From Prochlorococcus sp. AG-402-G10 (GTDB lineage Bacteria > Cyanobacteriota > Cyanobacteriia > PCC-6307 > Cyanobiaceae): DNA of 64,000 nucleotides. The position numbers were made by a program, and so were the translations under genes. Position 1 is the stretch's first letter. Every line of letters begins with the position of its first letter. Below are positions 49,102 to 50,427 of the stretch, in pieces. Below the pieces are notes generated by a model that was not told the DNA's origin, did no database searches, and saw only the letters and a list, made by a program, of their open reading frames with translations. Location: NCBI GenBank assembly GCA_003279445.1, contig QCHT01000007.1, positions 1 to 64,000 on the forward strand, in the 5' to 3' direction.

Positions 49102-49293
49102 TCAATGAGGAACAGATGGTCTAACAAAAAATGCAAGTAGCAAAATGAAGCCAAGAAACCCTACAGCAGTCAAAGAAAAGTGAAACAAACTTTGATTGCC
49201 TTTGCGGACCATATTCTTCATAGCTAATTTCACAAAGCTTGATGAAGGGGCTTTCTTATCGGAAGTTTTGGTCGAAATGAGATTTTTGTTCAT
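49102..49293 (-). CDS. DUF3285 small membrane protein
   Basis: 63 residues: a polar N-terminus, LVKLAMKNMVRKGNQSL-like core (FVKLAMKNMVRKGNQSLFHF) and one helix (LTAVGFLGFILLLAFFV). Fits the cyanobacterial DUF3285 family. The ATG overlaps the prfB stop by one base (TAATG), so translation is probably coupled to prfB. Function unknown. Confidence 0.8.
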   Translation of the reverse strand: MNKNLISTKTSDKKAPSSSFVKLAMKNMVRKGNQSLFHFSLTAVGFLGFILLLAFFVRPSVPH

Positions 49294-50427
49294 TAATCTT
49301 CACTCTCAAATTGATGATCTTGTTTGTCAATTCCTTTTAATAGGAGAGCTTGAATAAATAAATCTAAATCACCATTCATAACTCCCTCAACATCAGTAGA
49401 TTCTTTCTCAGTACGCAAGTCTTTCACCATCTGATAAGGGTGGAAAACATAATTTCTAATCTGGTTTCCCCAAGCGGCCTCAACCATGTCACCACGAATA
49501 TCTGCAATCTCTGCAGCACGTTGTTCTTGAGCAATTACCATCAATTTTGCTTTTAAAAGCGCCATAGCCTTCTCTTTATTTTGAAGCTGAGAACGTTCCT
49601 GAGTACAACGAACTGCTAAACCTGTTGGTATATGAAGAATGCGGACCGCAGTTTCAACTTTATTAACATTTTGCCCTCCTGCCCCACCAGATCGACTTGT
49701 AGTTATCTCTAAATCTTTTTCAGGAACCTCTAGTTGAACATCCTCATCAAGTTGAGGCATGACCTCTACTCCTGCAAAACTAGTCTGACGTTTCCCGTTG
49801 GCATTAAAAGGCGAGATTCTCACTAAGCGATGAGTGCCTTTCTCATGTTGTAAATACCCATATGCATAGCGTCCCTCTATCTCAATAGACGCACTTTTGA
49901 TTCCTGCTTCTTCACCTTCAGAAAGTTCATTTAGCTTAACTTTCATACCATGTGCCTCGGCCCATCGTGTATACATTCTCAAAAGCATCTGCGCCCAATC
50001 TTGTGCATCTGTCCCTCCAGCCCCAGCATTTATTGCCAAGACTGCTCCATCCTTGTCATAAGGACCACTCAAAAGCCTTTCTAGTTCCCACAGATCCAGT
50101 TCTGCTTCTAATTTATTCAAACCATTTTGAGCCTCTGTAAGTAATTCATCATCTTGCTCAAAATCATTTAGTTCTAAGACAGCGTTAGCATCTTGGAGAA
50201 TGTTCTGCCATTCTATTAATTTATTTAATTGATGCCTAACCTCATCTAATAGGCGCATTTGTTTTTTAGCTTTCTGTTGATCGTTCCAAAAGTCAGCTTG
50301 AGCTGCAATCTGCTCAAGATCCAACTTCCTTGCATTTAAGGCCGGTACGTCAAAGACAGTCCTGAGCATTGCTCAGGCGATCACTCAGTAAAGAAATAGA
50401 CCTTTTAAAGTCAATCAGATCATGCAC
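49293..50427 (-). CDS. prfB: Peptide chain release factor 2, with programmed +1 frameshift
   Basis: Releases peptides at UGA and UAA. GGQ in [11 protein letters not shown] and the RF2 tripeptide SPF in [15 protein letters not shown] are visible. A frame from the ATG at 50369 gives 358 residues, but its first six codons (MLRTVF) read a different frame from the true start. The upstream frame begins at a GTG at 50427 (with AGAGG 8 bases ahead) and runs 25 codons ending CAG GAC TGT CTT TGA. At CTT TGA C (50355-50349) a +1 slip gives [16 protein letters not shown] frameshift-stimulating AGGA lies 4 bases upstream of CTT. Full product is about 377 residues, close to the family length. Confidence 0.9.
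50349..50362 (-). promoter_or_regulatory. prfB: prfB programmed frameshift site (AGGA ... CTT TGA C)
   Basis: AGGAC TGT CTT TGA C on the minus strand: an internal Shine-Dalgarno-like AGGA is spaced 4 bases from the slippery CTT, which is followed by in-frame UGA and C. Same arrangement as in E. coli prfB, where RF2 level controls reading of the stop. Confidence 0.85.

Follow-up and report, generated by a model that had tools for sequence, protein, structure and literature searches.

A conserved hairpin upstream of the prfB +1 frameshift site in Cyanobacteriia, a probable stimulator of slippage

The window, a 64,000-nucleotide stretch of contig QCHT01000007.1 from Prochlorococcus sp. AG-402-G10 (source assembly of 1.62 Mb in 37 contigs), carries on its reverse strand a prfB gene that is read in two frames (Table 1). 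The downstream frame, ORF2, encodes RF2: it scores 468.5 bits with TIGR00020 (cut-off 370) and contains the Pfam domains PCRF and RF-1, and the closest named genomes in a protein search were those of Prochlorococcus sp., with at best 97% identity over RF2. A sequence-only reading of the window had proposed that ORF1, running from a GTG to CTT TGA C, is joined to ORF2 by a programmed +1 frameshift. Its coordinates are correct to the base, recomputed ORF coordinates give the claimed joined product of 25 + 352 = 377 amino acids, and the SD-like AGGA lies, as described, with a spacer of 4 nt to the CTT. The wording 'exon-like' for the first frame is loose, since no splicing is involved. A mechanical ORF call from the ATG within the hairpin region gives a protein of 358 amino acids. 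Between prfB and ybeY sits a small DUF3285 protein (49102-49293, reverse strand).

Table 1. Features of the prfB frameshift region in the window.
Feature	Position	Strand	Basis
ORF1, zero frame, GTG start, 25 codons to the slippery CTT	50353..50427	-	sequence; start position conserved
GTG start codon of ORF1	50425-50427	-	
RNA hairpin CCTGAGC-AAT-GCTCAGG (predicted), 7 bp, 3-nt loop, -22 to -6 from CTT	50361..50377	-	covariation, codon null
ATG, start for a plain ORF caller, spans the hairpin loop, not conserved	50367..50369	-	
SD-like AGGA, three of four bases within the hairpin 3' arm	50360..50363	-	
Slippery CTT (50355-50353), stop TGA (50352-50350), weak-stop context C (50349)	50349..50355	-	identical in 193 unique sites
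ORF2, RF2 body, +1 frame, GAC (50351) to TAA	49293..50351	-	profile and domain matches

The prfB sites of relatives were collected by protein search and by region, which gave 216 alignable sites (193 unique stretches) in the class Cyanobacteriia. All 216 carry CTTTGAC and an open upstream zero frame at the same place; hence, the frameshift site is not a product of chance. This class-wide conservation also rules out a sequencing error or a pseudogene. No relatives were found in this set that lack CTTTGA and start RF2 at the equivalent of ATG 50369: CTTTGAC is universal, while a +1-frame ATG upstream of the GAC is missing in 122 of the 216 sites. Together with the identity of ORF2 as RF2, the full conservation of the shift site and the upstream frame supports the proposed programmed frameshift. 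Sister classes and other phyla likewise have CTTTGAC preceded by an open frame, and a 2025 survey reports a prfB frameshift in 64% of 12,753 genomes (PMC12421855). In four sister-class prfB genes (L228, L230, L243, L246) a script scan found no CTTTGAC site, so some members of a sister class may no longer have the frameshift. By comparative evidence, the programmed prfB frameshift is real and in itself textbook.

The GTG start of ORF1 is retained in the nearest relatives, and GTG or TTG occupies this position in nearly all picocyanobacteria. At the usual place of the ORF1 start, 130 of 135 sites from the Prochlorococcus/Synechococcus family have only GTG or TTG, and other cyanobacteria have ATG in 78 of 83 sites. 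The weak start codon in picocyanobacteria may add to a low RF2 expression. The concern that such a gene escapes annotation is largely answered by a curated 'exception' model for prfB at NCBI and by RefSeq plasmid copies, which are annotated as CDS. Their lengths of 1114, 1099 and 1117 nt are not multiples of 3, consistent with a +1 join, which requires that.

Although the frameshift proposed in the sequence-only reading is supported, the reading was incomplete, as it overlooked the weak SD and a conserved palindrome just upstream of the shift site. The palindrome would fold into an RNA hairpin with a predicted energy of -10.0 kcal/mol, and the distance between stem and CTT is fixed at 5 nt. 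Standard pairs fill 95.7% of the pair cells in 73 unique sites; with the partner slid by 1-3 columns as a control, at most 56% of the cells were paired. Cells changed on both sides numbered 29, compared with 13.9 in shuffles, and none of 500 shuffles reached 29. Five of the seven stem pairs hardly vary and reveal little about covariation. For the pair -18/-10 we counted GC 41, GU 17, AU 14 and AC 0, and for the pair -16/-12 CG 37, UA 14, UG 9 and CA 1. As the G-U wobble is kept and the mirror A-C mismatch avoided, the element is an RNA stem rather than a DNA palindrome. The pair -16/-12 links the synonymous third base of a Gly codon with the first base of an Ala/Thr codon, and this tracking cannot be explained by coding. 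A tree with 93 rows, built from the RF2 bodies without the hairpin, requires at least 12 changes at base -18 and at least 11 at base -12. Independent pairs on strongly supported branches amount to 4 and 3, respectively; on average the partner changed the same way or showed no difference, and never went the opposite way. As these 4 and 3 pairs are too few for significance, the tree supports covariation in direction but not formally.

Searched as an exact pattern, stem, AGGR and CTTTGAC together match 349 of 381 genomes (142 of 154 genera), nearly always with a single occurrence in a genome; a reversed control pattern was absent among the matches listed. No Rfam family matched the window at gathering score, or the surroundings of the site at E values up to 1. 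In three sites, L011 (G004), L020 and L096, CTTTGAC is intact although the stem is poor or broken (CGTCTGAAGAATTCTCAAGAC; CGCTTGAAAAATGCACAGGAC); a hairpin is therefore no strict requirement. As a structure the hairpin is well supported by these comparisons; its function we infer.

The SD-like stretch is weak in most of the class, with about -4.0 kcal/mol for the duplex of AGGA and the anti-SD, compared to -8.3 kcal/mol for AGGGGG. The anti-SD core of this genome is normal, because the 3' end of its 16S rRNA reads GGATCACCTCCTAACA; this end carries CCTCCTAACA, unlike a TTT-containing pattern. Sister classes within the phylum have AAGGAG, GGGAGG and AGGAGG stretches, which reach -6.5 to -9.2 kcal/mol, and their prfB sites showed no such hairpin. 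For other phyla, a small sample of twelve prfB genes from plasmid records was compared, ten of them with a shift site. At the hairpin position, none of these ten sites reaches six pairs; within this small sample most have a strong SD, with two weak ones (Monoglobus and Acetoanaerobium). In the cyanobacterial hairpin, the 3' arm takes up the A, G and G of the AGGA. Because of this overlap, full pairing of both the hairpin and the AGGA duplex is impossible. One site, L259 (G363), has lost the AGGA (AGCA) and retains five stem pairs (CTGGG/CCCAG) as well as CTTTGAC.

According to published work, +1 slippage is promoted by an SD duplex close behind the P-site codon. A designed hairpin at the upstream position also stimulates the +1 shift at CUUUGA, reaching about 60% of what the SD achieves when assayed in a 70S system that lacks RF2 (PMC6321510), and a 5' stem-loop has been proposed to pull the mRNA in the bypassing of T4 gene 60 (PMC5009743). 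We infer from the sequence comparison that frameshifting takes place at the cyanobacterial site under stimulation by the hairpin. At low RF2 levels, a ribosome holding CUU in its P site and UGA in its A site would stall, its tRNA-Leu would slip from CUU to UUU, and translation would go on in the +1 frame to yield complete RF2; with ample RF2, the 25-residue peptide would be released. The 7-bp hairpin could reform right behind the stalled ribosome, 5 nt short of the P-site codon, and would take the place that an SD duplex usually fills. There it would most likely act like an SD duplex, straining the mRNA or pulling it 5'-ward, i.e. in the +1 direction. With the stem formed in its upper part only, the hairpin may also cooperate with the AGGA. 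We thus regard prfB of this class as probably an autoregulated +1 frameshift gene whose slippage is stimulated by an upstream hairpin, with or instead of an SD duplex. That the hairpin has replaced the SD across the entire class, as a natural stimulator of a kind that at this site we have seen reported only for designed hairpins, is a further step that we favour by a small degree.

The main alternative is that the hairpin has the opposite effect. As its 3' arm covers three bases of the AGGA and stem and SD duplex are mutually exclusive, it could serve as a damper that hides most of the AGGA and keeps the shift low or conditional on temperature, ribosome speed or a helicase. Such masking would predict a strong SD combined with a hairpin, but the AGGA alone is already weak. 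The five stem pairs retained in L259, which has lost the AGGA, and the published upstream hairpins, which increase +1 shifting (PMC6321510), likewise speak against a damper, and we consider this role unlikely. A plain textbook frameshift, with the palindrome as a by-product of the protein sequence RLGxAQ/RLGxTQ, codon bias and the SD-like CAGGA, would agree with the conserved amino acids and with the near invariance of five of the seven pairs. In a codon null, synonymous codons were drawn from each gene's own usage in 161 genes. Full 7-pair stems were observed in 144 of these genes, but 16 were expected, or 19 with CAG-GA held fixed. The synonymous third positions -22 and -19 in the 5' arm are 98-100% fixed, in comparison to 38-70% further up in ORF1. 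With two pairs covarying, G-U retained and A-C avoided, an origin of the palindrome as a mere by-product is quite improbable.

A short perfect palindrome near a gene start could also be the DNA site of a regulator. The stem sequence, however, occurs once in this genome, its distance to CTTTGAC is fixed, and mismatches of the G-U type are common while those of the A-C type are nearly absent, a distinction that a DNA site would not make; we give this explanation very little credence. Translation of RF2 from ATG 50369 without any frameshift has in its favour that this codon opens the ORF of 358 amino acids, but the lack of an equivalent in the 122 sites mentioned above and the invariance of the upstream frame and CTTTGAC make it the least credible of the alternatives. 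The codon null, covariation, copy number and ATG conservation thus disfavour the coding-constraint, DNA-site and internal-start explanations.

For +1 frameshifting, prfB serves as the model case, and across bacteria an SD duplex is assumed to be the stimulator. If stimulation by the cyanobacterial hairpin holds true, a hairpin that naturally replaces or supplements the SD in a whole class would allow one to tell whether the shift is caused by an exit-channel duplex as such or by base pairing to the 16S rRNA. The stems with A-U or G-U pairs and the broken stems are ready natural variants for tests, and L011, L020 and L096 are suited for reporter work. In that case, logos compiled from all bacteria can conceal such lineage-specific stimulators. 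The frameshift itself is already known. No description of the hairpin was found in the searched literature on prfB/RF2 frameshifting with cyanobacteria or a hairpin, Baranov 2002 and ARFA being outside its coverage. The elements that the available part of the 2025 survey (PMC12421855; 12,753 genomes) describes are the SD-like, slippery and stop ones; a hairpin is not among them, and cyanobacteria are not named in the text. The hairpin is undescribed as far as this literature and Rfam show, and priority is not certain. Hairpin and weakened SD together apparently constitute a lineage-specific version of the classic switch in photosynthetic cyanobacteria.

In its layout, the cyanobacterial site resembles the autoregulated +1 frameshift of E. 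coli-type prfB, with the same short ORF1, CTT TGA C, +1 continuation into RF2 and an internal SD-like stretch. It differs in having AGGA with a 4-nt spacer rather than AGGGGG with 3 nt, and in the covarying hairpin that overlaps the SD-like stretch. The hairpins designed for CUUUGA (PMC6321510) occupy the same place just 5' of the same shift site and were proposed to mimic the SD duplex; they are engineered, GC-rich and 12 bp long, whereas the stem described here is natural and has 7 bp at 5 nt from the P-site codon. The 5' stem-loop of T4 gene 60 (PMC5009743) is likewise an mRNA hairpin at the exit channel that is proposed to pull the mRNA 5'-ward. It acts in a long bypass, however, rather than a single-nucleotide shift, and is not homologous to the cyanobacterial hairpin.
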